DNA of 41,891 bases from Solobacterium sp. (lineage in GTDB: Bacteria > Bacillota_I > Bacilli_A > Erysipelotrichales > Erysipelotrichaceae). Every line of letters begins with the position of its first letter. The first letter of the stretch is position 1. The DNA lies in contig JAFUGM010000026.1 of NCBI GenBank assembly GCA_017469355.1, positions 1 through 41,891 of the forward strand. The letters run 5' to 3'. The notes beneath the pieces are model-generated. The model saw only the letters and a program-made list of their open reading frames with translations, had not been told where the DNA came from and did no database searches. A program made the position numbers and the translations under genes. Shown here piece by piece: positions 14,482 through 33,866 of the stretch.

Positions 14482-16377
14482 TCAGTCTTCCCCTTCCGTA
14501 TAGCTGGCATTCCAGCCTGCGATCCTGCCTTCTTCACTTCGCTCATCCTGTGGTTCGCTGGCTTTGCCAAACTGGGTGTTATACAGTTCGGTATAAACTC
14601 CTCCCTGTTTTACCAGATCCGCATGTTGGCCACGCTCGACAATCACGCCGTCTTTCAGTACCAGAATTTCATCTGCCGCAAGAATCGTCGAAAGACGATG
14701 GGCAATCAGAATGGAGGTACGGCTGGCAATCAATGGATCAATTGCGTCCTGAATCTTCTGTTCGGAGATGGAGTCCAGCGCCGAAGTCGCTTCATCAAAG
14801 ATCAGCAGTGCTGGGTCTTTCAAAAGAATACGGGCAATGGAAAGACGTTGTTTTTCACCGCCGGACAGCTTCAATCCACGATTTCCAACCATGGTATTGA
14901 ATTTGTCAGGCTGCTTTTCAATGAAGTCATAAATATTGGCTTTCTTACACGCTTCAATCAATTCTTCTTCCGTCGCATCCGGCTTTGCGTAAAGCAGATT
15001 GTCACGAATCGTTCCATTGAAAAGATAGGTATCCTGGGTAACGACACCGATCTGCGAGCGCAGCCACGAAAGGTCAAGACGCTTCACATCGACATCATCA
15101 AAATAGACAACCCCTCCCCTTGCGTCATAAAGACGGGGAATCAGATTGATCATCGTGCTCTTGCCGGAACCGGATGGGCCGACAATCGCCACGCTGTGTC
15201 CTGCCTTGAGCTCAAAGCTGACATTCTTGAGAATCGTATGAGGATAGTCGTAATAGAATCCCACATGATCAAACTTTACCGAACCGGTAGAGGTTTCCGG
15301 GATGATCGGATTTGGCACATTCTTGACTTCCGGCTCCATATCAAAGTAATCAAAGATACGGGTAAATAACGCCATGGAACGGATCCAGTCGACCTGAATG
15401 TTCAATAAGGAATTCACTGGGCCATACATTCTGGAAAGCAGTGAAACAAGAACGGTAATATCACCTACCGTCAGATCACTGTCATATTTCATCATGAGAA
15501 TTCCACCCACCAGATACAACAACATCGGTCCGATGGAAGAAACAGTGCTTAACACAACCCGGAACCAGCGGCCAGCCATGGATTCACGAATATTCAGGTT
15601 AATCATTCTTCGATTGGCATCTTCATAGCGCTGGTATTCCACTTCTTCCTTATTGAACAGCTTGACCAGGGTCTGCCCGCTGACGGAAAGGGTTTCATTC
15701 AGAATTCCGTTAATCTCGTCATTGCATTCCTGTGCTTCGTTGGTGAGTGACCAGCGGGTCTTACCGGCTTTTCTTGTTGGAATTGTAAATAAAGGAACGA
15801 TGACAATACCGAGTAATGCCAGTACCCAGTTGCGCTGAAACATCGCAACCAGAGCCACCGTAAGAGTAATAACATTGGAGAGAATACTGGTAAAGGTATC
15901 TGTGATAATCCGCTGTACACCATCAATATCTGAAGTCATGCGGGTAACGATATCACCTTGATTATTTGAGGTGAAGAATCGCTGTGACATGCTTTGAAGA
16001 TGACGGAACATCTGATTGCGCATATCAAACGTAATATGCTGGGCAATCCAGGAGTTCAGGTAGGACTCTGCCACACCGATCAGGTTGGATCCGAAGGTTA
16101 CCGCAAGCGAAAGAAGAATTAAGCGGATGAGCAGCGGAAGATTTCTTCCGTAAAGTCCCTTATCAATGATTTCACCGGTTAATACCGAAGGAAGTATGGA
16201 AAGTATAGAGGAAACAATAATACAGAGCAGGGTCAGACATAACTGTTTCCAATAGGGCTTCAGCCAGGAAAAAATACGAATCAACAATTCTTTACTTACT
16301 TTAGGTGCCTGCGCTTTCTCCTCTTCTGACATGAAGTTGCGCATTCCCCGGCCCATTCCGCCGCCTGGCATACTCAT
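14482..16377 (-). CDS. ABC exporter, fused permease and ATPase
   Basis: A 631-residue half-transporter. The transmembrane domain covers about residues 38-330 with six helices. The nucleotide-binding domain follows with Walker A GPSGSGKST, signature LSGGEKQRLSIAR, Walker B LLIFDEATSALD and the switch His in IAHRLS. All catalytic residues are present, so it could work as a homodimer. The extreme N-terminus is Met/Gly-rich (MPGGGMGRGMRNFM), often seen in multidrug or lipid-type exporters of Firmicutes. A strong GGGGGGAG site precedes the ATG. The substrate is unknown; no partner half-transporter is adjacent. Confidence 0.93.
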   Translation of the reverse strand: MSMPGGGMGRGMRNFMSEEEKAQAPKVSKELLIRIFSWLKPYWKQLCLTLLCIIVSSILSILPSVLTGEIIDKGLYGRNLPLLIRLILLSLAVTFGSNLIGVAESYLNSWIAQHITFDMRNQMFRHLQSMSQRFFTSNNQGDIVTRMTSDIDGVQRIITDTFTSILSNVITLTVALVAMFQRNWVLALLGIVIVPLFTIPTRKAGKTRWSLTNEAQECNDEINGILNETLSVSGQTLVKLFNKEEVEYQRYEDANRRMINLNIRESMAGRWFRVVLSTVSSIGPMLLYLVGGILMMKYDSDLTVGDITVLVSLLSRMYGPVNSLLNIQVDWIRSMALFTRIFDYFDMEPEVKNVPNPIIPETSTGSVKFDHVGFYYDYPHTILKNVSFELKAGHSVAIVGPSGSGKSTMINLIPRLYDARGGVVYFDDVDVKRLDLSWLRSQIGVVTQDTYLFNGTIRDNLLYAKPDATEEELIEACKKANIYDFIEKQPDKFNTMVGNRGLKLSGGEKQRLSIARILLKDPALLIFDEATSALDSISEQKIQDAIDPLIASRTSILIAHRLSTILAADEILVLKDGVIVERGQHADLVKQGGVYTELYNTQFGKASEPQDERSEEGRIAGWNASYTEGED

Positions 16378-22332: not shown

Positions 22333-23616
22333 TCAGGCATTTTCACCTTCCTGCACCAAGGTTACACAGGAAATGCAGGAGCGATCCAGACTGCGAATCA
22401 GAATCGTGCAATCCTCAGCAGTAAGCTCATGAACCAGATCACATTCCTCATATGGAGTTACCCCGCGTATTTGTGCTCTTGCCCAGGTAGAAATGAGATC
22501 AGAAGGATGTTCAGAAGAACGGACAACCGCACCGATGACCCTCCGTTTGAGCTGTTCGAGATCCGCCTCCTTCACGCCTTCTTCGCAAAGCCCATCCAGC
22601 TGTTCCATCACAAACTGCTTTAACTTCTCCGCATCACTCTGCGCATCTTCAAAATAGAGAAACGCATAATCTGGCGTACAGTCTGCTTCATAGCTGAAGT
22701 AGGCAGTGATGCGCCCCTCATCAATCCAGGACTGGTACAGCGGATGAATCGGTGTAAACACCGTTTCCAGTCCCAGCCGCAGCGCCCACTCCATTCGAAG
22801 ACACTCTTTCAATGATCCTTGAGGAATCGGTAAGCGGATGGTAACGGAAGTCTTTGGCTGCGCCAGTTCCATCGGTATCCTAACCATGGTATGAGCTGGA
22901 TGCGGCGGTTCTTCGCGGAACCAGCGGACCAGCCGCTCTCCGCTTGAACGGTGCTTCGCTGCCTGATTAGCTCGGATACACTCAAGCACCTCCTCCTTTG
23001 GGGCAGAAGTCACCGCGATCAATGTCATAGTTGAAGGATGATAGTTGCGCCGATACGCTTCTTCCAGATGGCTTAATGTAATCGCACGAATGGATGATTC
23101 ATCGCCGACGATATCACTCCCTAACGGATGAAAGGAATAGACCGCGCGCATGCTTTCAAGGAACAGACGGGCATCCGGGTCCTGTTGATACATTGCCAGC
23201 TCTTCCAGTATGATCGGTTTTTCCTTCTCTACAGAAGCTTCCGTGATGGAAAAGTGCTGCACAAAATCAAGCAGAAGTGTCAGTGGTGTCAGTACATCCT
23301 GCGATGTGGTCGTGAAATAGTAAGCGGTGGAATCATAGGAGGTATAGGCATTTACATTAGCACCTAACCTGCTGAACTTCCGCATCACATCCTCCGCATC
23401 GGATTCAAACAGTTTATGTTCGAGAAAATGCGCGGTTCCCGGCTCATATGTGATCGTTTCTCCCTGCGCATTTTTCTGAATGACATCGAGACTTCCAAAC
23501 GGCGTCATAAAAAGAAAGGCAGAAGTACAATACGCTGGCTTGGGAAGAAAGATAACCTTCAATCCGTTTTCCAGTGTAACTTCATCATATGGTTCCCGAA
23601 TGTGGTCGTAGTTCAT
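22333..23616 (-). CDS. ymfH: M16-family zinc peptidase (YmfH-like)
   Basis: A 427-residue inverzincin. The active-site HxxEH is His63-Phe-Leu-Glu66-His67 (TAHFLEHKLFES), and the distal Glu region KEKPIILEELAMYQQDPD follows at the expected distance. It should be catalytically active. The second half is the substrate-closing M16_C domain. It overlaps its inactive partner by ATGA, so the two probably form a heterodimer, as in the Bacillus YmfF/YmfH pair. Substrates are unknown. No clear terminator follows; only a weak AT-rich hairpin is seen. Confidence 0.92.
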   Translation of the reverse strand: MNYDHIREPYDEVTLENGLKVIFLPKPAYCTSAFLFMTPFGSLDVIQKNAQGETITYEPGTAHFLEHKLFESDAEDVMRKFSRLGANVNAYTSYDSTAYYFTTTSQDVLTPLTLLLDFVQHFSITEASVEKEKPIILEELAMYQQDPDARLFLESMRAVYSFHPLGSDIVGDESSIRAITLSHLEEAYRRNYHPSTMTLIAVTSAPKEEVLECIRANQAAKHRSSGERLVRWFREEPPHPAHTMVRIPMELAQPKTSVTIRLPIPQGSLKECLRMEWALRLGLETVFTPIHPLYQSWIDEGRITAYFSYEADCTPDYAFLYFEDAQSDAEKLKQFVMEQLDGLCEEGVKEADLEQLKRRVIGAVVRSSEHPSDLISTWARAQIRGVTPYEECDLVHELTAEDCTILIRSLDRSCISCVTLVQEGENA

Positions 23617-24863
23617 TCACCCTCCTTGTTCTGATGCAGGATTGAGATCGTGGTTAAGCGCAGTGATGCGATACTGTCACATAACTCCTGCTTTGTGATT
23701 GTGCCAAGGGTCTTACACAGTTCCTCTATACTTTGAACTTCCCAAATCAATGCCTGACGATAGTTATATGACAAAAGACTGTCAGGGTCATCCAGTGAGG
23801 CGCGATAAACATTGATGATCATCTGCTTGGTCATCTCAAGATCTTCTTCCTCAAAGGATCCATTACGTATCGCTTCTGCCTGTTCCGTTATCGAAGTAAT
23901 TGTTTCTTCAAGATGTTCCGCTTCCACTGCAGTCATCACACGAATCAACCCATCCATGGAAAGAAGGGCTGAGTCGATGGAATAACATAAGCCCTGCGCT
24001 TCCCGTACTTCACGGAATAAAAGACTCGAAGGAAGCCCGCCAAACAAGCCATTCGCCAGCACCAGCGCAGGATACCGGCTGTCGTTCAGCCTAACCCCTG
24101 TTTCAAACAACATGGTTAAATGCGTCTGGGGAAGGTCTCGGCTTGTCTCCACCCGTAATTCACTGGATTGATATGGGCAAATCACAGCACCTTGTTTGAC
24201 CCGCGCTTCAAAGGGAAAATACCGCCTGGTCAATTCAACAATCCGCTCCGTCGATTCGCAGGAAAGCACCTGAATATCCACCCTGGCATTTCTTCGAATA
24301 AACTCCCATACCTCCGCGCATTGACTTGAAGTAAGGGATTCAAGCTCTTCCACCGTTGGAAGTGCCCGCATCCCCGCAGCACCTCCATAAGCTCGGATTG
24401 CGGCTTCGGCACACTCCGTTGCGGGATCATCCATTGCCATACGGACACTGAGTATCGCCTGTTCCCGGCATTCCATAAACATTGCTTCAGGAAATACCCC
24501 ATCCTCTAATCGTGCATAAAACAACAGTTCCCCTACCAGTTCAAACCCCGCCTCAAGAAGATCTTCGCCTTCTTCCAGCGAATGGATTTCACTTAAGGAA
24601 AATCGAAGGGAATCACAAGCTCCCCGAGGTGTATTCAGCACATTCAATGAGGCCCCATACAAGCGATCCTGCTGTTCTAGCAGCTGCTTCTTGGTCGGAT
24701 AATGGAATGTAGTATCTGCCAGAAGATAAGACAAAAGAAACGACGCTGCCCACTTAGACTGATCCATCGACCATAACAGATTCACATGAATCGCATGGGT
24801 TTTAAATTTCGTTCCGTCAATCACATGAAGATTGACGCCGGAACACAGTTCATAAGGTTTCAT
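23613..24863 (-). CDS. ymfF: M16-family inactive partner (YmfF-like)
   Basis: A 416-residue protein with the M16 fold but no HxxEH motif: the corresponding region reads LSYLLADTTFHYPTKK. It is therefore a non-catalytic partner of the following peptidase. The C-terminal half keeps the block LFREVREAQGLCYSIDS that positions substrate in M16 proteins. The start lies 21 nt after the terminator of the small Cys-rich gene. The promoter was not resolved. Confidence 0.9.
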   Translation of the reverse strand: MKPYELCSGVNLHVIDGTKFKTHAIHVNLLWSMDQSKWAASFLLSYLLADTTFHYPTKKQLLEQQDRLYGASLNVLNTPRGACDSLRFSLSEIHSLEEGEDLLEAGFELVGELLFYARLEDGVFPEAMFMECREQAILSVRMAMDDPATECAEAAIRAYGGAAGMRALPTVEELESLTSSQCAEVWEFIRRNARVDIQVLSCESTERIVELTRRYFPFEARVKQGAVICPYQSSELRVETSRDLPQTHLTMLFETGVRLNDSRYPALVLANGLFGGLPSSLLFREVREAQGLCYSIDSALLSMDGLIRVMTAVEAEHLEETITSITEQAEAIRNGSFEEEDLEMTKQMIINVYRASLDDPDSLLSYNYRQALIWEVQSIEELCKTLGTITKQELCDSIASLRLTTISILHQNKEGE

Positions 24864-25212: not shown

Positions 25213-27846
25213 TCATTCATCCTTTTTCAGATATACTTCCCGGGGTTTACTTCCCTGGGCTGGGCCAATGACACCCTTTTCTTCCAGAAGGTCAATCATG
25301 CGGGCAGCACGGTTATAGCCAATGCCAAACCGGCGCTGCAGTAATGAAGTGGAAGCCTTCTGTACGTCGACTACGTATTCCTTGACTTCATCAAACAGCG
25401 GATCGTCACCGGCAGAGGCTACTCCGCCGATTCCCCCTTCTCCGTCATTCACACCTTCCAGACGTATGAAGCTGTCATCATACATCGGAACCGCTTCTGA
25501 GGAGACATAATCTGTAATCCGCTTCACTTCATCATCGGTAATGAAGACACCCTGTACACGGGTCGGGTTGGATACACCAATCGGCATATACAGCATATCG
25601 CCGTTTCCAAGCAGGCGTTCCGCTCCTACATGATCCAGAATCGTACGGGAGTCAATTCCAGAGGAGACCGCAAACGCGATACGGCTTGGAATATTGGCCT
25701 TGATGACACCGGTAATAACATCGGTGGAAGGACGCTGCGTAGCGATGATCAGATGAATTCCGGCTGCCCGGGCAAGCTGGGTAATTCGCTGAATGGAGCT
25801 TTCCACATCCTTTCCCGCAACGTTCATAAGATCTGCCATCTCATCTACGATAACGACGATATACGGCATCTTCTTCGGTGCAGGACTTCCATCTTCATTC
25901 GTCGCTGGCATATTTGCGACGGCAGTATTGAATCCCTGAATGTTTCGAACCCCTGCCTTGGCAAAGGCATCATAGCGCTCATCCATGATCTTGACGATTA
26001 CCTTCAGGGCATTGCTGGCCTGCGAAGGATCGTTAATGACCGGTCCGATCAGATGCGGAATCCGCTGATACGGGGTGAATTCTACCTTCTTGGGATCTAC
26101 CAGAAGAAGTTTTACTTCATCCGGTTTGGTGCGCATCAGAATGGATGTGATGATGGAGTTCATACAGACCGATTTACCGGAACCGGTCGCTCCGGCAATC
26201 AACAGATGCGGCATCTTATCAAGACGGCAGGTCACAGTATTGCCAAGCAGATCTTTTCCCAGCACGATTACAAGCGGCTGTTCCTTATCTGCTTCCGGCA
26301 GAGTCTGGAAGAGTTCCTTCATCTTAACCGGAGTCGCCTTCTGGTTCGGGATTTCCACACCAACTGCGTTATGACCAGGAATCGGAGCCTCAATACGGAC
26401 ATCCCGTACTGCCAACTGCATCTTGATATCATCCGCAAGGCCAAGAATTCTCGATACCTTCACATTAGCGTCCGGACGGATTTCAAACTTTGTGACAGAG
26501 GGACCGATATGTGTATCGATCAGGCGGGCTTCAATATCGAAGTTCCGTAATGCCTGAATCAGCAGTTCTCCCTTTTCCGCTGCGGCTGCTTCGTTCACGT
26601 CATCCTTTGGTTTAGGCGGAATCGGATCGAGCAGTGTTGTCTTAGGAAGATGATACGGGCGATTCGTCCGACGCGGTTTGACCGGTTCAGGGGCAGGCGT
26701 CGGAGTAGTCTCTACCGGAGGTTCCATCTCCATCACTTCCTCTTCTTCATAGGAAGGCGCTTCCTCATATGGCTCCTCGTATTCCACCTCTTCCTCTTCT
26801 TCGGATTCATATTGTGGTTCTGTCACTGCCTGACGGGCCACAACCGTATTGTCATAGAGCTCATCGACGGTCATGAAGGACATCTTTGGCTGCGGAGCTT
26901 CTTCGGGTTCTTCAGAGATCACTTCCATTTCTTCTGTCCAGCCATGCGCCATATCCTCTTCTTTAGGCTCCCCATCCGCAAGGATCCCCATGCGGGAATT
27001 CGGGTCATAAGGAAGTTCTTCCTGGAATCCGGACAGGGGTTCCGGGGTATCGTCAAATTCATCGTTTGGAATCGGACGCACCGGAATTGCGGCAGTCGCC
27101 TCATCTGCCTGAATCATGCGGATCTTAGGCTGTGCCTTACGGGAAGGAAGCTCCCGAACCGGCTCAATCATCTCCGGTTCAAATGTATCTTCTTCAAAGA
27201 TGTCGTCATCGTCTTCCTCGTCTTCTTCATCCTCATCTTCTTCCTCATCCTCTTCATCCCGTGTGGAGAGGTATGTCCATACGGTGCGGAAGGCCTGTTT
27301 GTACACTTCAAGGTTTACGAGGAGTAACGCGGCGATGATGAAAAGTACGATAATCACAAGTACCGTACCGGTACGGTCAATTAACGCCGTCGTCAAAGAG
27401 AATAACAGCGCACCGATGATTCCTCCGCCTGCTTCAATGGAAGGTTCATCGGTAAACAGAGAACGGGTCGCATGAAGATATTCCTGTACGATCTCACCAC
27501 CGGTCAGATCCTTGGAGGTATCGGTATACGCGCATAGCAGCAATACCGCCAGAATGATACAGATAATCGCAATCGGATTCTTGGACAGCGTATTTCCGGA
27601 ATTCCGGTTCAGTATCGTAATCAGAATCTGAATGACAATCGCTCCGGTAATGACATAGTAAAACTTACCGAAGAGATATCGGATCAGCCGGCTGAGGTAG
27701 GTTCCTACCAGCCCCATCTGCATATACGCCACAACCGTAATTGCGGCTAACAGAACGATCCAGATCCATTCCTTTACTTCATTCGATACCGATTTCTCCG
27801 CACGCTTGCGGGATGTTGTTTTCTTGTTTGTTTTCTTAGCAGCCAT
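25213..27846 (-). CDS. ftsK: DNA translocase FtsK/SpoIIIE
   Basis: An 877-residue DNA pump that clears chromosome ends from the division septum. Four transmembrane helices lie in about residues 25-180. A linker of about 270 residues follows, with an unbroken acidic stretch near 195-220, then the RecA-like motor with Walker A GATGSGKS and Walker B VVIVDEMADL, and a C-terminal winged-helix gamma domain (STSLLQRRFGIGYNRAARMIDLLEE) that reads KOPS-type sites. I chose the ATG at 27846; an upstream GTG adds six residues, but the -10 box overlaps it. Whether it acts at vegetative septa or in sporulation cannot be told. Confidence 0.95.
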   Translation of the reverse strand: MAAKKTNKKTTSRKRAEKSVSNEVKEWIWIVLLAAITVVAYMQMGLVGTYLSRLIRYLFGKFYYVITGAIVIQILITILNRNSGNTLSKNPIAIICIILAVLLLCAYTDTSKDLTGGEIVQEYLHATRSLFTDEPSIEAGGGIIGALLFSLTTALIDRTGTVLVIIVLFIIAALLLVNLEVYKQAFRTVWTYLSTRDEEDEEEDEDEEDEEDDDDIFEEDTFEPEMIEPVRELPSRKAQPKIRMIQADEATAAIPVRPIPNDEFDDTPEPLSGFQEELPYDPNSRMGILADGEPKEEDMAHGWTEEMEVISEEPEEAPQPKMSFMTVDELYDNTVVARQAVTEPQYESEEEEEVEYEEPYEEAPSYEEEEVMEMEPPVETTPTPAPEPVKPRRTNRPYHLPKTTLLDPIPPKPKDDVNEAAAAEKGELLIQALRNFDIEARLIDTHIGPSVTKFEIRPDANVKVSRILGLADDIKMQLAVRDVRIEAPIPGHNAVGVEIPNQKATPVKMKELFQTLPEADKEQPLVIVLGKDLLGNTVTCRLDKMPHLLIAGATGSGKSVCMNSIITSILMRTKPDEVKLLLVDPKKVEFTPYQRIPHLIGPVINDPSQASNALKVIVKIMDERYDAFAKAGVRNIQGFNTAVANMPATNEDGSPAPKKMPYIVVIVDEMADLMNVAGKDVESSIQRITQLARAAGIHLIIATQRPSTDVITGVIKANIPSRIAFAVSSGIDSRTILDHVGAERLLGNGDMLYMPIGVSNPTRVQGVFITDDEVKRITDYVSSEAVPMYDDSFIRLEGVNDGEGGIGGVASAGDDPLFDEVKEYVVDVQKASTSLLQRRFGIGYNRAARMIDLLEEKGVIGPAQGSKPREVYLKKDE

Positions 27847-27854
27847 TACCCGAT

Positions 27855-27863
27855 ATTGTATCA
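27855..27863 (-). promoter_or_regulatory. Extended -10 promoter of ftsK, very close to the start
   Basis: TGATACAAT is an extended -10 element. Only 8 nt separate its last base from the ATG, so transcription should begin at or next to the start codon. There is no room for a Shine-Dalgarno site. Confidence 0.5.
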
Positions 27864-27919
27864 CGAAGTTCCGCCTGCTTCGTTGTTAACATACTCGTAT
27901 TCCGCCTGTTCACTTCATG

Positions 27920-27963: not shown

Positions 27964-29631
27964 TCAATCCTTGGTGTTGATTTCCACAATCGCAGGCAGG
28001 ATCATGGGCCGCTTCCCGGTTTCCTTCATGACATATCTTGCGATCTTTTCCCGAGCCTCTGCCCGGCAGTCCAGATTGTCATACCGGTGTTCCGCAACCG
28101 CAGTATTGATGGTATCCTCAATGATCAGACCAACTTCACGAATGATGTAGTCCGCATCCTTGAGATAGATGACACCCCGGCTCTGCACATCCGGTCCGCC
28201 GATGATTTCCTTGGTGGTGTGGTTCACAACGACTCCGACAATGATCGCACCATCCGTACTGAGTGTTTCTCTATCCTTCAATACCATTCCTGCCGCATCG
28301 AGACTGTCGCCGCCAGACACCATCACATCCCCAATCGGCACCTTCTTCAGCTCCCGCTGTAACTGACCGGAGTCAATACATGCGGCCTGGCCGTTTTCCA
28401 GAACAATGATATTGTTTGCCGGATAGCCCATCCCAAGGGCGATATTCGCATTGGAGATCAGCTGCCGGTATTCACCCTTCACCGGTACGTAGTACTGAGG
28501 ATTCATCAGATAGATCATCATCTTCAGATCTTCAATTGACGCATGCATGGAGAAGGTGCGCTTGGTATCGACGCCGAATACCCGGGAGGTTTCCTTATAC
28601 AGGTCATCTTCCATGGTGGATGCGTTGCGCTCGGTGCCTGGAACCGCAGGAGAAGCGACGATGACAGTATCGGTATCCCGCAGCTGAATCACATCATCTT
28701 CCCGGCTGGCAATCTTATGAACCTTACGGAATATCGTACTTCCAGTTCCGCCGATAATCACAACCACATTATCCAGATCATTCGAGAAATTCTGCGGCGC
28801 AATTTCAAGACCCGCCGGAATCCGGTAATAACCAAGTTCTGCCATATCCGCCATTAAGGACCGCAGCTCTGTGTCGTAAATCATGACTTTCCGGTTGAAC
28901 TTATTCGCTAATTCGATCAGTTCAATAACGCGATACAGATTCTGACTGTAAGCCGTACATACAATTCTCCCCTGCGCCCCATCAAAGATCGGTTCCACCT
29001 GGGAGGTGATGCGATGATTAGGGGAGGAGTGCCCTTCTCGTGTGGAACCCACAGATTCGGTCAATAACGCCAGCACACCTCTAGCGCCAAGCTCGGTAAC
29101 TTCCGTAAGATCAAACCGGAACGCATCCATCTTGACGTCATAGTCAACGATGAATTCACTGGAATATACCACATAGCCATCTTCCGTCCGGATTGCGATG
29201 CCAAAACCATCTGCGATGGATTGGGTTGTGCCGAAGGTACGGATCTCGGTATCACCGATCTTAAAGGAAACATTACGGCGGATGCGGTGAATCTGAATAT
29301 CCTTCAGACCTTCCTTACGGGCTTTGCGTTCAAACATCTTGGCGGTCAATGGTGCCATATAAACCGGTACCTTCACCTGTTTCAGAAGATGTACGAGCGC
29401 CCCCATGACATCATCATGACCATGGGTGACAAAGACACCTTTGACCCGATCCACATTCTCACTTAAATACTGAAAATCAGGAATGATCATTTCCACCCCG
29501 AGCTGTTCATCCGATTCGGGATAGCGCATTCCGCATTCAATCACAAAAATATCTTTATTGTTTTCTACGACATACATGTTCTTGCCGTCTTCATCGAGGC
29601 CGCCCAGAGCAAAAATACGTACCTTACTCAT
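27964..29631 (-). CDS. rnjB: RNase J2-like protein with degenerate metal site
   Basis: A 555-residue protein with the full RNase J layout: metallo-beta-lactamase domain, beta-CASP domain and C-terminal domain ending TGKRPMILPAIVEI. RNase J enzymes degrade and mature RNA from the 5-prime end. Here the metal ligands are widely changed: HxHxDH reads HGHDDV (70-75), the usual His of HSIPD is Gln137, the Asp of TGDF is Glu159, the Asp of SDST is Glu192, and the His of HGEYR is Lys385; His363 remains. It resembles the weakly active or inactive J2 subunit more than J1, and goes further. It probably acts as a structural partner of an active J1 elsewhere. The start follows GGAGG and a good -10. Confidence 0.88.
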   Translation of the reverse strand: MSKVRIFALGGLDEDGKNMYVVENNKDIFVIECGMRYPESDEQLGVEMIIPDFQYLSENVDRVKGVFVTHGHDDVMGALVHLLKQVKVPVYMAPLTAKMFERKARKEGLKDIQIHRIRRNVSFKIGDTEIRTFGTTQSIADGFGIAIRTEDGYVVYSSEFIVDYDVKMDAFRFDLTEVTELGARGVLALLTESVGSTREGHSSPNHRITSQVEPIFDGAQGRIVCTAYSQNLYRVIELIELANKFNRKVMIYDTELRSLMADMAELGYYRIPAGLEIAPQNFSNDLDNVVVIIGGTGSTIFRKVHKIASREDDVIQLRDTDTVIVASPAVPGTERNASTMEDDLYKETSRVFGVDTKRTFSMHASIEDLKMMIYLMNPQYYVPVKGEYRQLISNANIALGMGYPANNIIVLENGQAACIDSGQLQRELKKVPIGDVMVSGGDSLDAAGMVLKDRETLSTDGAIIVGVVVNHTTKEIIGGPDVQSRGVIYLKDADYIIREVGLIIEDTINTAVAEHRYDNLDCRAEAREKIARYVMKETGKRPMILPAIVEINTKD

Positions 29632-29696: not shown

Positions 29697-31130
29697 TCAG
29701 ACTGCCTCTCCAAGCAGACTGAAACTGCGTGCTTCCGTAATTTTCACATTCACCACATCCCCTTCACGAGCCGTATCGCTGTGAAAGTTCACAAGTCGGT
29801 TTTCTTCGCTGTACCCGCAAAGTACCGATGGATCCTTCTTACTGGCGCCATCACACAGAACTTTCCGAATCTGCCCGACTTCCGCTTCATTATTCCTCCG
29901 GGCATAGTTTCCTACCCGCTCATTGAGCTGCGCAAGCCGCTGTTTCTTTACCGCAAGCGGCACATTGTCTTCAAAGGAAGCCGCCGGGGTTCCTTCCCGG
30001 GGACTGTAAACAAAGGTAAACGCGCTGTCAAACTGGCAATGATCCACTAATGACAGGGTCTCTTCAAACTGCGCATCGGTTTCGGAAGGAAAGCCGACAA
30101 TCAGATCCGTGGTAAAGGTAATTCCCGGAATCTTCTCCTTCATCCGCTCATATAAAGTAAGAAACTGCGAAGACGTATAACCGCGGTTCATTCGTTTCAG
30201 TATTTCATCAGAGCCGGATTGAACGGGAAGATGCAGTGCCGGCATGACATTGGGGTGCTCCACCATCACATCAATCGTGGATTCCCGGTAATCCCGTGGA
30301 TGAGATGTATAGAACCGGATTCGCTCAATTCCTGTATCCGCTGCTTCCCGAAGAAGCTCACTGAACCCATCTTCCATTCCAAGATCCTTGCCATAGGCGT
30401 TGACATTCTGCCCAAGCAGCGTCACTTCCTTTGCGCCCTGTGCCTTTACCGCAAGAATTTCCCGGATGACATCCTCACTTCTACGCGAGCGTTCCTTCCC
30501 TCTGGTATAGGGAACGATACAGTAAGTGCAGAACTTATCGCACCCATACATAATATTCACGAATGCCTTATAGTGCCGGCTGCGTTCCACCGGCATACCT
30601 TCTACGACGGAACCGCTTCCTTCCGATTCCACCTGAATCGTCCGCTCCCCTGCCATGACTCTTGAAAGAAGATGCGGAAACTGTTCCATATTATGGGTTC
30701 CAAATAACAGATCCACCTGTGGATAGCGTTCACTGACGAGCGCAACCATGGATTCTTCCTGGGCCATACAGCCGCAGATACCGAAGATCTTTTCCGGATG
30801 CGCCTGCTTTAATGGCTTCAGACTGCCGATTTCCCCAAGCACATGATCCTCTGCAGCCTTACGTACCGCACAGGTATTGAATAAGGAAATGTCTGCTTCC
30901 TCTGGCGAAGCGACAGGATTGAATCCCATCATCTCCAACATGCCCGCAAGCGTCTCACTGTCCCGCACATTGGCCTGGCAGCCATACGTACGAATATAAT
31001 AGGTTTTTCCAATGCCAAGGGTACGAAGGTCATCTTCCAGACAGAAGTCGACTCTTCTTGCCTCATTACGGCGGTTTCGTTCCGCCTTGGGATCGGGTAA
31101 CTGATAATTTTTCTTCATGGTTATACTCAT
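29697..31130 (-). CDS. miaB: tRNA-2-methylthio-N6-dimethylallyladenosine synthase MiaB
   Basis: A 477-residue radical-SAM methylthiotransferase that modifies A37 of tRNAs reading UNN codons. The N-terminal MTTase domain has its three cluster Cys in YGCQAN, NTCAVR and GCMAQ. The radical-SAM triad is CDKFCTYC (YGCDKFCTYCIVPYTRG). A TRAM domain ends the protein. Start is either the ATG at 31130 or 31118; neither has a clear Shine-Dalgarno site, and the promoter is so close that the leader would be only about 8 or 20 nt. It is probably transcribed alone; the next gene has its own -10. Confidence 0.96.
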   Translation of the reverse strand: MSITMKKNYQLPDPKAERNRRNEARRVDFCLEDDLRTLGIGKTYYIRTYGCQANVRDSETLAGMLEMMGFNPVASPEEADISLFNTCAVRKAAEDHVLGEIGSLKPLKQAHPEKIFGICGCMAQEESMVALVSERYPQVDLLFGTHNMEQFPHLLSRVMAGERTIQVESEGSGSVVEGMPVERSRHYKAFVNIMYGCDKFCTYCIVPYTRGKERSRRSEDVIREILAVKAQGAKEVTLLGQNVNAYGKDLGMEDGFSELLREAADTGIERIRFYTSHPRDYRESTIDVMVEHPNVMPALHLPVQSGSDEILKRMNRGYTSSQFLTLYERMKEKIPGITFTTDLIVGFPSETDAQFEETLSLVDHCQFDSAFTFVYSPREGTPAASFEDNVPLAVKKQRLAQLNERVGNYARRNNEAEVGQIRKVLCDGASKKDPSVLCGYSEENRLVNFHSDTAREGDVVNVKITEARSFSLLGEAV

Positions 31131-31246: not shown

Positions 31247-31426
31247 TTACTCACCTTCTGTGATTGCACCGACAGGGCATGTGCCGACGCAGGACAGACA
31301 GGAGATGCAGGAATCTGCATTGCACTCCGACTTTCCGTCACCATCCAGGGACAGAGCGGATACCGGGCAAACACCTGTGCAAGCGCCGCATCCGATGCAG
31401 GCATCCTTATCTACTACAACTGCCAT
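31247..31426 (-). CDS. 2[4Fe-4S] ferredoxin
   Basis: A 59-residue bacterial ferredoxin with two complete cluster motifs, CIGCGACTGVCP and CISCLSCVGTCP. It carries low-potential electrons in anaerobic metabolism, for example for pyruvate-ferredoxin oxidoreductase or hydrogenase. Start at 31426 follows AAGGAG with a rather long gap; a longer in-frame extension runs back through the promoter and is rejected. It is monocistronic, with its own strong promoter and terminator. Confidence 0.95.
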   Translation of the reverse strand: MAVVVDKDACIGCGACTGVCPVSALSLDGDGKSECNADSCISCLSCVGTCPVGAITEGE

Positions 31427-31453
31427 ATGTTCTCTTTTCTCCTTCTGCCTCAA

Positions 31454-31482
31454 ATTATAGCACCCGCAAAGTTCGGGTTCAA
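31454..31482 (-). promoter_or_regulatory. Promoter of the ferredoxin gene
   Basis: TTGAAC (31477-31482) and a perfect TATAAT (31454-31459) are spaced by exactly 17 nt. Confidence 0.78.
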
Positions 31483-31494
31483 TCATTCCCGAAG

Positions 31495-31523
31495 GAAAAC
31501 ACCTGCCCAAACAGACAGGTGTC
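31495..31523 (-). terminator. Terminator of the rny-ymdB operon
   Basis: The stem ACACCTG/CAGGTGT with a 10-nt loop is followed by TTTTCC, a short T-tract. It lies about 20 nt after the ymdB stop. Confidence 0.7.
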
Positions 31524-31541
31524 ATAAGCTGTGAATGCGTT

Positions 31542-32309
31542 TCAGGGACGCTCCTGAATCCGTGTGATTCTGATGGCACGATTGGTGGCGTCATCGATTT
31601 CGATAACTACTCCGCAAAGGATTGCCGGAGTTTCCGCTGGCGTATAACGCGTCGCTTTTCCATGCGTTCGTGCGATCATCTCATCTACGTCTCTGCCAAG
31701 AATGGAATCAAACGAACCACACATCCCGACATCCGAGATATAGGCAGAGCCATGCGCGATTCGCTCATCCGCGGTCTGCACATGCGTATGCGTTCCAACC
31801 ATTGCGGTAATCCGATCCCGATACAGATACCAGAAGAGTTCCTTCTCCCCGGTAGCCTCCCCATGGAAGTCCACCAGAATAATATCTGCGTCAATGGAAT
31901 TCAGAAGCCGTTCCCCAACGGGATAAGACTCTCCCAGGGCGTTATTCATGAAAACGCCGCCAAGAATATTTACCACCGCAATCCGTTTCCCCTGACACTC
32001 CCGGATGACCACACAGTTTCCCGGTTCTTCGGGATCCATGTTTGCCGGACGTACCAGGTACGGACACTCATTCAGTTTTCCCAGAATTTCATGTTTCGAA
32101 AAGGAATGATTTCCCAAAGTAATCACGTCAGCGCCTGCTTCCATCAGTTCGTTGTAGATGGAAGAGGTAATCCCCTTGCCATGCGCTGCGTTTTCCCCGT
32201 TGATGACTGTAAAGTTGGCCCCAACCTCCTGTTTGAGGTCAGCCAATCTGCGTTTCACGGCAATTCTGCCGCTTCTGGAGACCACATCACCGAGGAATAG
32301 AATCTTCAT
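31542..32309 (-). CDS. ymdB: YmdB-type metallophosphoesterase
   Basis: A 255-residue phosphoesterase of the YmdB family (TIGR00282 type). Metal-binding blocks GDVVSRSGR, NGENAAHG, GNHSFSK and THTHVQTADE are present. In Bacillus it hydrolyses 2',3'-cyclic nucleotides and influences biofilm and motility choices. It lies 3 nt after rny, the conserved order, suggesting a link to RNA turnover. Ends at its own terminator. Confidence 0.94.
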   Translation of the reverse strand: MKILFLGDVVSRSGRIAVKRRLADLKQEVGANFTVINGENAAHGKGITSSIYNELMEAGADVITLGNHSFSKHEILGKLNECPYLVRPANMDPEEPGNCVVIRECQGKRIAVVNILGGVFMNNALGESYPVGERLLNSIDADIILVDFHGEATGEKELFWYLYRDRITAMVGTHTHVQTADERIAHGSAYISDVGMCGSFDSILGRDVDEMIARTHGKATRYTPAETPAILCGVVIEIDDATNRAIRITRIQERP

Positions 32310-32312
32310 CGG

Positions 32313-33866
32313 TTACTGGGCCAGTTCCTGTACCCTCACTTCACGAATCAGGGTTACTTTAATCTGACCAGGATAGGTCATTTCGTTTTCAATCCGATCC
32401 TTCAGATCATGCGCAACCTTAACCATGGTTTCGTCATTGATCTTTTCCGGCTGAACCATAACCCGGATTTCACGGCCTGCCTGAATGGCGAAGGCCTTCT
32501 CAACACCATCGAAGCTTGTGGCGATCTTCTCCAGCTGTTCCAGACGTTCGATGTAGTTCTCCATCGATTCGTATCGCGCTCCCGGACGGGCTGCACTTAA
32601 GGTATCAGCTGCTGCTACAAGCACCGCGATGATGTCATCCGCCGGCTTATCGCCGTGATGGCTCTCAATCGCATTGATGACGATATTGTTTTCGCCATAC
32701 TTCTTAGCGACCTTGGCACCCAGTTCCACGTGGGAGCCTTCCTGTTCAAAGTCAATGGCTTTACCGATGTCATGAAGCAGACCAGCACGTTTGGCCAGCT
32801 GCTGGTTGAGTCCCAGCTCTGCCGCCATGATGCCGGCGAAGGTTGCGACTTCCATCGAGTGTTCCAGAACATTCTGACCATAGCTGTAACGATAGCGAAG
32901 CCGTCCAACCAGTTTAGTGAGTTCACGGTTCAGACGATTGATTCCGAGTTTGAATACCGCCTCATCACCGATCTTGGCAATCGTATCATCCAGTTCTCTT
33001 GTGACCTTATTTACAACTTCCTCAATCCGTCCCGGCTGAATCCGGCCGTCCTTCATGAGCTGTTCCAATGACTGTCTTGCGATCTCTCTGCGAATCGGAT
33101 CGAAGCAGGAAACGGTAATGACATCCGGTGTATCATCGATGATCAGGTCAACCCCGGTTGCCTGTTCAATCGCCTTGATATTCCGTCCCTCACGGCCGAT
33201 GATCCGACCCTTCATATCCTCATTGGGAAGTGTCACAACCGAAACCGTTCGGTCAATGGTCTCTTCCTGCGAGTAGCGCTGAATCGCCGTAGCGATAATG
33301 TTTCTCGCGTTATCCGCCGCCTTTTCCTGAGCGATTTCATCCTGTTCGTGGAGGTAAGCCGCGATATCCTTTTCGGACTTCTTGGCAACCGCATCCATCA
33401 GTTCGGCTTTAGCGTCTTCACGGGACAGCCCGGCTGCTTTTTCCAGCACCTCAATCTGACTGTCAATCCGCTGCTTGAGTTCCTCTTCCATCTTGCTGAG
33501 ATGCTTGAGTTTATCATCAGCGAGTCTGGTCTTTTCGTCGAGCTTCTTCTCTTTTGCGCTCAAATTTTCCTCACGGAAGCCAATATTATCCTCCCGCCGC
33601 ACAAGTTTGTTCTCCTGTGCCTGGATGCGGTCCCTCTGGCTCTTAATCTCACGTTCAGCCTGCTGCTTCATTTCCATGACCTGCTGCTTACCGTCGAGAT
33701 TCGCCTGACGAACAATATTCTCCGCTTTAGCATTCGATTCGTCGAGAATGGACTGTGCCTCATTCCGTGCCCGGTCGAGGCCAGCCCGGCTCGAAATCGT
33801 CATGATCACGACTCCGATTACAATGCCGGCAATCCCAGCGAGAATGGGGATCAGTACATTATTCAT
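32313..33866 (-). CDS. rny: Ribonuclease Y
   Basis: A 517-residue membrane-bound endoribonuclease that starts mRNA decay in Firmicutes. An N-terminal transmembrane helix (4-24) is followed by a long coiled coil (about 30-190), a KH domain (GRIIGREGRNIKAIEQATGV) and an HD domain with the catalytic HD in LLHDIGKA. Length and order are normal. It has its own promoter and a GGAGGG site. Together with YmdB and the RNase J2-like protein it makes this region rich in RNA-decay functions. Confidence 0.98.
   Translation of the reverse strand: MNNVLIPILAGIAGIVIGVVIMTISSRAGLDRARNEAQSILDESNAKAENIVRQANLDGKQQVMEMKQQAEREIKSQRDRIQAQENKLVRREDNIGFREENLSAKEKKLDEKTRLADDKLKHLSKMEEELKQRIDSQIEVLEKAAGLSREDAKAELMDAVAKKSEKDIAAYLHEQDEIAQEKAADNARNIIATAIQRYSQEETIDRTVSVVTLPNEDMKGRIIGREGRNIKAIEQATGVDLIIDDTPDVITVSCFDPIRREIARQSLEQLMKDGRIQPGRIEEVVNKVTRELDDTIAKIGDEAVFKLGINRLNRELTKLVGRLRYRYSYGQNVLEHSMEVATFAGIMAAELGLNQQLAKRAGLLHDIGKAIDFEQEGSHVELGAKVAKKYGENNIVINAIESHHGDKPADDIIAVLVAAADTLSAARPGARYESMENYIERLEQLEKIATSFDGVEKAFAIQAGREIRVMVQPEKINDETMVKVAHDLKDRIENEMTYPGQIKVTLIREVRVQELAQ

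Follow-up and report, generated by a model that had tools for sequence, protein, structure and literature searches.

A predicted RNase J2 of an Erysipelotrichales bacterium with a reduced active site in which four residues are held by purifying selection

The stretch of DNA analysed here (henceforth referred to as 'the window') is 41,891 nucleotides long and carries, on the reverse strand at positions 27964–29631, an open reading frame of 555 amino acids plus a stop codon, with no internal stop, which we call rnjB. On its upstream side lie miaB (29697–31130, minus strand; over the TIGR01574 cut-off), a small ferredoxin-like open reading frame, ymdB, the RNase Y gene rny (32313–33866, minus strand; over the TIGR03319 cut-off) and recA, and on its downstream side lie a gene for an FtsK/SpoIIIE-type DNA translocase (25213–27864, minus strand; assigned by domain matches and locus comparison) and then the yfmF/yfmH pair. 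Loci of the named relatives were counted where enough flanking sequence was available: given 1 kb or more upstream, miaB adjoins rnjB in 68 of 77; given 5.5 kb or more upstream, RNase Y is encoded within 6 kb of rnjB in 43 of 49; and given 1 kb or more downstream, FtsK follows in 49 of 72, the rule for calling FtsK being a strict one. Thus, rnjB sits in a conserved recA-rny-ymdB-miaB-rnjB-ftsK cluster. In B. subtilis, too, rnjB is presumably located close to spoIIIE and in the neighbourhood of rny and recA. The small open reading frame between ymdB and miaB (window 31247–31594, minus strand) contains two CxxCxxC-type cysteine clusters, and several of the named relatives carry a similar sequence in this position. 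The M16-type peptidase pair YfmH/YfmF occupies 22333–24863 (minus strand), with YfmH above its NCBIfam cut-off and YfmF below; the window also encodes an ABC exporter (14482–16377, minus strand) whose best NCBIfam match, MsbA, is under the curated cut-off.

The rnjB product matches the RNase J family profile TIGR00649 at 413 bits (cut-off 400) over profile positions 1–545 of 546, and the Pfam domain RNase_J_C over 102/102 profile positions at 85.7 bits; the MBL, beta-CASP, RMMBL and RNase J C-terminal domains are all present in the expected order. An AlphaFold2 model built with 17 aligned homologues had a mean pLDDT of 82 and a pTM of 0.73. The original prediction of an RNase J homologue with a complete fold and C-terminal domain was therefore borne out, and the homologue is full-length. 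By VIA-align, the model came closest to S. epidermidis J2 (6k6w_C), with a Z of 47.2 and an rmsd of 2.1 across 436 residues, compared to a Z of 44.5 for S. epidermidis J1, and the top Foldseek match was an integrative J1-J2 model in the PDB; judged from the model, the fold alone would discriminate little between J1 and J2. The closest sequence with a solved structure is likewise S. epidermidis RNase J2 (E 1.7e-92), with the J1 proteins of S. epidermidis and B. subtilis narrowly behind. A tree of 74 rows from which the site columns had been removed separated J1 (7 rows) from J2 (67 rows, including S. epidermidis J2) with an SH-aLRT of 100, and the split recurred, also at 100, in a second tree built from 66 rows; both were quick trees without bootstrap, in which long branches were flagged (L196, L192 and L203 in the first, L270 and L242 in the second). 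The second tree took in seven rows of family f1, the divergent f1 rows being absent from its alignment. S. epidermidis J2 is the sole characterised J2 in both trees, and the comparison beyond the class rests on this one sequence, a phylum-wide search having added no visible Bacillales or Lactobacillales. On these sequence comparisons, we assign rnjB as the RNase J2 (RnjB) orthologue of an Erysipelotrichales gut bacterium (Solobacterium/Bulleidia-like). Its product is of a known protein type, and the more interesting part is the series of J2 proteins, from near-complete to abolished sites, into which it falls.

The source genome (2.69 Mb in 92 contigs) encodes exactly two RNase J proteins above the family cut-off. 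The other one, on a separate contig (C6), is a J1 in which all J1 catalytic residues are present, with HGHEDH and the equivalents of H142, D164, D195, TGH and H390. We therefore rejected the possibility that the rnjB product is J1 itself, the original having been lost and replaced. With its position in the J2 clade and an intact J1 in the genome, a J2-type protein that acts as a partner or regulator of J1, as originally predicted, appears to be the best reading. A match was found in 60/60 related genomes, and at least two RNase J matches in 383 of the 393 genomes searched; eight had one, and two unreadable genomes (G286 and G482), which gave no RNase J match but no RecA match either, were not counted as losses. 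In the one-contig genome G498 (contig C1, L225–L228) both RNase J genes are apparently split into two open frames, which suggests either assembly mistakes at single bases or genuinely broken genes.

Substitutions in the rnjB product were numbered by alignment with B. subtilis J1 (PDB 3zq4 sequence). All five changed positions that had been predicted were recovered: V75 corresponds to H79, Q137 (codon 29221–29223, minus strand, as for all codons given here) to H142 of metal site 1, E159 (29155–29157) to the bridging ligand D164, E192 (29056–29058) to D195 of motif A, and K385 (28477–28479) to H390 of metal site 2. V75 stands in place of the last His of motif 2 (HxHxDH in J1), which reads H70-G71-H72-D73-D74-V75 (29407–29424, coordinates counted from the start at 29631). 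Three substitutions had been overlooked, namely E32 for D37 (motif 1), T359 for H364 and Q230 for S233. The residues S361-M362-H363 (28543–28551) do align with S366-G367-H368, the SGH motif of J1, although this motif is described as serving in phosphate recognition (PMC7864078) and not, as had been stated, in sugar binding. In J1 numbering, the changes are D37E, H79V, H142Q, D164E, D195E, H364T, G367M and H390K, together with S233Q, and H74, H76, D78, S366 and H368 are unchanged. The product does not have the full set of seven metal ligands of a two-metal J1-type nuclease: three are kept (H70, H72 and D74) and four are altered (V75, Q137, E159 and K385), one of the four changes, D164E, being a conservative swap. 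Metal site 2 is dismantled (V75 and K385) and site 1 weakened, the latter being short of one standard ligand because H142 is replaced by Q137. A sequencing or frame error was rejected as the source of these changes, since the pattern is shared by dozens of genomes and dN/dS is about 0.05.

Two proteins of known structure help to place this site. B. subtilis J1 (PDB 3zq4) shares the domain order and length of the rnjB product and is 29–30% identical to it in structural alignment, but has all seven metal ligands and belongs to the J1 clade. S. epidermidis J2 (PDB 6k6w), the best fold match and a member of the same clade, likewise has 4/7 ligands changed (D78H, H79A, D164E and H390Q) and has in common with the rnjB product the Glu for D164 and the loss of H79 and H390. 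However, S. epidermidis J2 retains H142, D37, D195 and H364, whereas the rnjB product keeps D78, carries H142Q, D37E, D195E, G367M and H364T, and has Lys rather than Gln at 390. The view that the rnjB product has more changes than known J2 proteins thus fails for the metal ligands but stands over 13 catalytic and phosphate positions (D37, H74, H76, D78, H79, H142, D164, D195, H364, S366, G367, H368 and H390), of which 8 are changed in the rnjB product and 5 in S. epidermidis J2.

The substitution pattern recurs with small variations in 80/80 named relatives, which range from 90% down to 56% identity and comprise Solobacterium sp., other Erysipelotrichaceae assemblies, Bulleidia extructa and Holdemania. 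Of these 80 loci, 79 have V at position 75 and one has A; position 137 holds Q in 73, H in four and E in three, positions 159 and 192 both hold E throughout, N occurs at position 72 in three, and K is found at position 385 in all but one, which has H (row L154, counted as J2). His at 385 was seen in four f1 J2 rows (L154, L173, L184 and L220), of which L173 also has Gln at H70; these are either reversals or an older mixed state. For the wider comparison, 154 f1, 19 f2, 23 J1 and 17 other rows were reduced to 75, 18, 22 and 17 by dropping rows with more than 5% gaps or with at least 90, 95, 95 and 95% identity, respectively, to a kept row; the 74 and 66 rows of the two trees were smaller selections again. 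The second J2 family of the order (f2) has H at 137 and D at 32, each in 18/18 non-redundant rows, and H142Q and D37E therefore look like later changes in family f1. Among the 17 rows of the other J2 families of the class (S. epidermidis J2 included), 15 have H at 137, 15 have D at 159, 9 still have H at 75, 13 have E at 192, and not one has H at 385.

Against relatives at 90, 88 and 86% protein identity, rnjB gave dN/dS values of 0.050, 0.057 and 0.064, with dS about 1.5 and hence near saturation; the gene evolves under strong purifying selection. This and the conserved synteny led us to reject a recent pseudogene. Among 93 non-redundant Erysipelotrichales J2 rows, H70 is present in 92, H72 in 90 (N in the other three), D74 in 93, E159 in 92, E192 in 92, M362 in 92, H363 in 93 and K385 in 88, and the equivalent of H142 is Q in 55, E in three and M in one. 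The quartet H70, H72, D74 and E159 had a mean entropy of 0.16, the mean over all columns being 1.52 (P 0.0003 from randomly drawn columns), a rough value, as are all constraint P values here, since relatedness was handled by sequence weighting only and the quartet was picked after the residues had been seen. All seven ligand columns, a less selective test on the same 93 rows, gave P 0.001, and the trio V75, Q137 and K385 was not more conserved than the background (entropy 1.04, P 0.19). Purifying selection thus maintains H70, H72, D74 and E159 in Erysipelotrichales J2.

The pocket might have been re-tooled for another ligand, as had been raised originally, or for a regulatory metal. In favour of this, J1 and J2 each have a fixed residue (at least 90% in each), but not the same one, at 23 positions, including E159, E192, Q230, M362 and K385 at motif positions. 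However, the same list includes conservative swaps outside the motifs, V75, Q137 and K385 are at background conservation, and we found no candidate ligand nor any sign pointing to one, so that we regard re-tooling as very improbable.

J2 rows of genomes in which TGA codes for Trp (families f5, f16, f23 and f25; L196, L230–L240 and L262–L273; henceforth referred to as 'mollicute-type') served as a control. These 18 distinct rows form one clade inside J2 in the second tree (SH-aLRT 99) and resemble the rnjB product in their clade, in the intact J1 of the genomes examined and in having Lys at 390 in most cases. Unlike the rnjB product, they have lost the HxHxDH motif fully (NxSxYN, KxSxEC, DxKxxS and similar): nearly all metal ligands are gone, and both first His residues of the motif are absent in 18/18 rows. 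Far more eroded than the rnjB product, they set a further limit on its claimed distinction, and judging by their residues they would be truly site-less RNase J2 proteins. Their seven ligand columns showed no excess conservation (1.50 vs 1.58, P 0.40), nor did those of the 14 f5/f25 rows taken alone (P 0.19). J1 is intact in 12/12 of the mollicute-type genomes examined and is fully conserved at its seven ligand columns.

These rows bear on whether the rnjB product is a fully dead scaffold that binds no metal, keeps its residues for folding or RNA contact only and acts by shaping J1. Since mollicute-type J2 persists without a site alongside intact J1, the family can evidently live without one, and the dead scaffold stays a serious rival; the loss of H142 and H390, two metal ligands, in the rnjB product and the dispensability of the S. 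aureus J2 site for growth under the conditions tested (PMC3937233) also speak for it. However, in a fully dead pseudoenzyme the old ligands would be free of constraint, and H70, H72, D74 and E159 are constrained in Erysipelotrichales (P 0.0003) in a manner missing from the abandoned mollicute-type site (P 0.40). The description 'fully dead' is thus unsupported, and we consider the dead scaffold unlikely, if far from negligible.

Characterised J2 proteins range from active to apparently structural, roughly tracking the remaining site. In S. aureus, a J1 site mutant resembles the deletion, whereas a J2 site mutant grows like the wild type and a J2 deletion is sick (PMC3937233); S. aureus J2 resembles the rnjB product as a paralogue alongside an intact J1 with a degraded motif 2 (HGHEHA vs HGHDDV), although the genetic data are for S. 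aureus only. In S. epidermidis, J1 is stimulated by J2, and J2 combined with catalytically dead J1 is inactive (PMC6447361). S. epidermidis J2 binds a single Mn2+ on H76, H78, H80, H144 and E166, the Glu at the D164 equivalent being a real Mn ligand, and cleaves RNA weakly at 72 uM, with Ca2+ preferred in the assay (PMC7864078). E. faecalis J2 is weakly active and requires H69 and H71, its site mutants bind J1 with similar affinity, and pilus production depends on its activity (PMC5383250); S. mutans J2, with a J1-like motif, is described as potent (PMC6759994). The last two cases indicate that some J2 proteins catalyse in vivo. The RNase J mechanism is covered in PMC4652760.

The one-metal endonuclease mechanism proposed for S. 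epidermidis J2 (PMC7864078) offers a model for a weak but physiologically needed activity of the rnjB product. Of the four ligand positions altered in the rnjB product, three are altered in S. epidermidis J2 too, with the same Glu for D164, and S. epidermidis J2 is weakly active, so that the substitutions originally proposed to inactivate the protein have in part been found in an RNase J with some activity. However, H70, H72 and E159 are present in the rnjB product, whereas H144 and the extra H80 of S. epidermidis J2 are Q137 and D74, and the activity reported for S. epidermidis J2 is very low and an in vitro figure; we consider such an endonuclease improbable.

We find it reasonably probable that the rnjB product mainly serves a J1-J2 complex as a structural or stimulatory subunit, and that its centre is reduced, possibly holding one metal, and has little or no independent activity. 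J1 would supply the cutting site, as in staphylococci, and the rnjB product would shape and stimulate J1 within the complex. Its pocket would retain a reduced centre, probably one metal on H70, H72 and E159 with D74 and residue 137 nearby, K385 would occupy the place of the second metal, and its own nuclease activity would be at best weak. A remaining centre is suggested because the quartet H70, H72, D74 and E159 is kept. Against this preferred reading, the quartet might serve folding or contacts with RNA in a metal-free pocket, site 1 is without H142 and H72 is N in three rows; moreover, the need for catalytic His residues in E. faecalis J2 and the potency of S. mutans J2 argue for a more active role.

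We also considered a more elaborate version, in which H70, H72 and E159 would form a purpose-built mononuclear centre, Lys385, paired with the bridging acid, would permanently take the place of metal 2, and the non-cutting pocket would tune J1 through its occupancy by metal or RNA. Genomes of families f5 and f25 retain Lys385 and the acid at 159 together despite ligand loss, and among the 58 J2 rows of the second tree the residue at 385 is not basic in 5/5 of those without an acid at 159 (Fisher P 0.0014). However, the pairing was not significant on the tree, where three independent pairs gave one concordant and two with no difference; it may be taken as a hint only, and the elaborate version is improbable.

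Whether other J2 paralogues share a one-metal site is a question posed in PMC7864078. Our literature search, which left most subscription papers outside its reach, found no description of Erysipelotrichales RNase J or of ligand loss in mollicute J2, and the latter is also absent from the available part of PMC4014445; among the RNase J2 papers listed from 2021 on, no title was recognisable as the source of 8yyf–8yyk, the mutant structures of S. epidermidis J2 from 2025. Taken together, the J2 sites form a series from near-complete HxHxDH..H..D without H390, through the partly eroded Erysipelotrichales site, to the site-less mollicute-type proteins, with J1 intact wherever examined, and this series provides natural variants for separating the structural role of J2 from its own chemistry.
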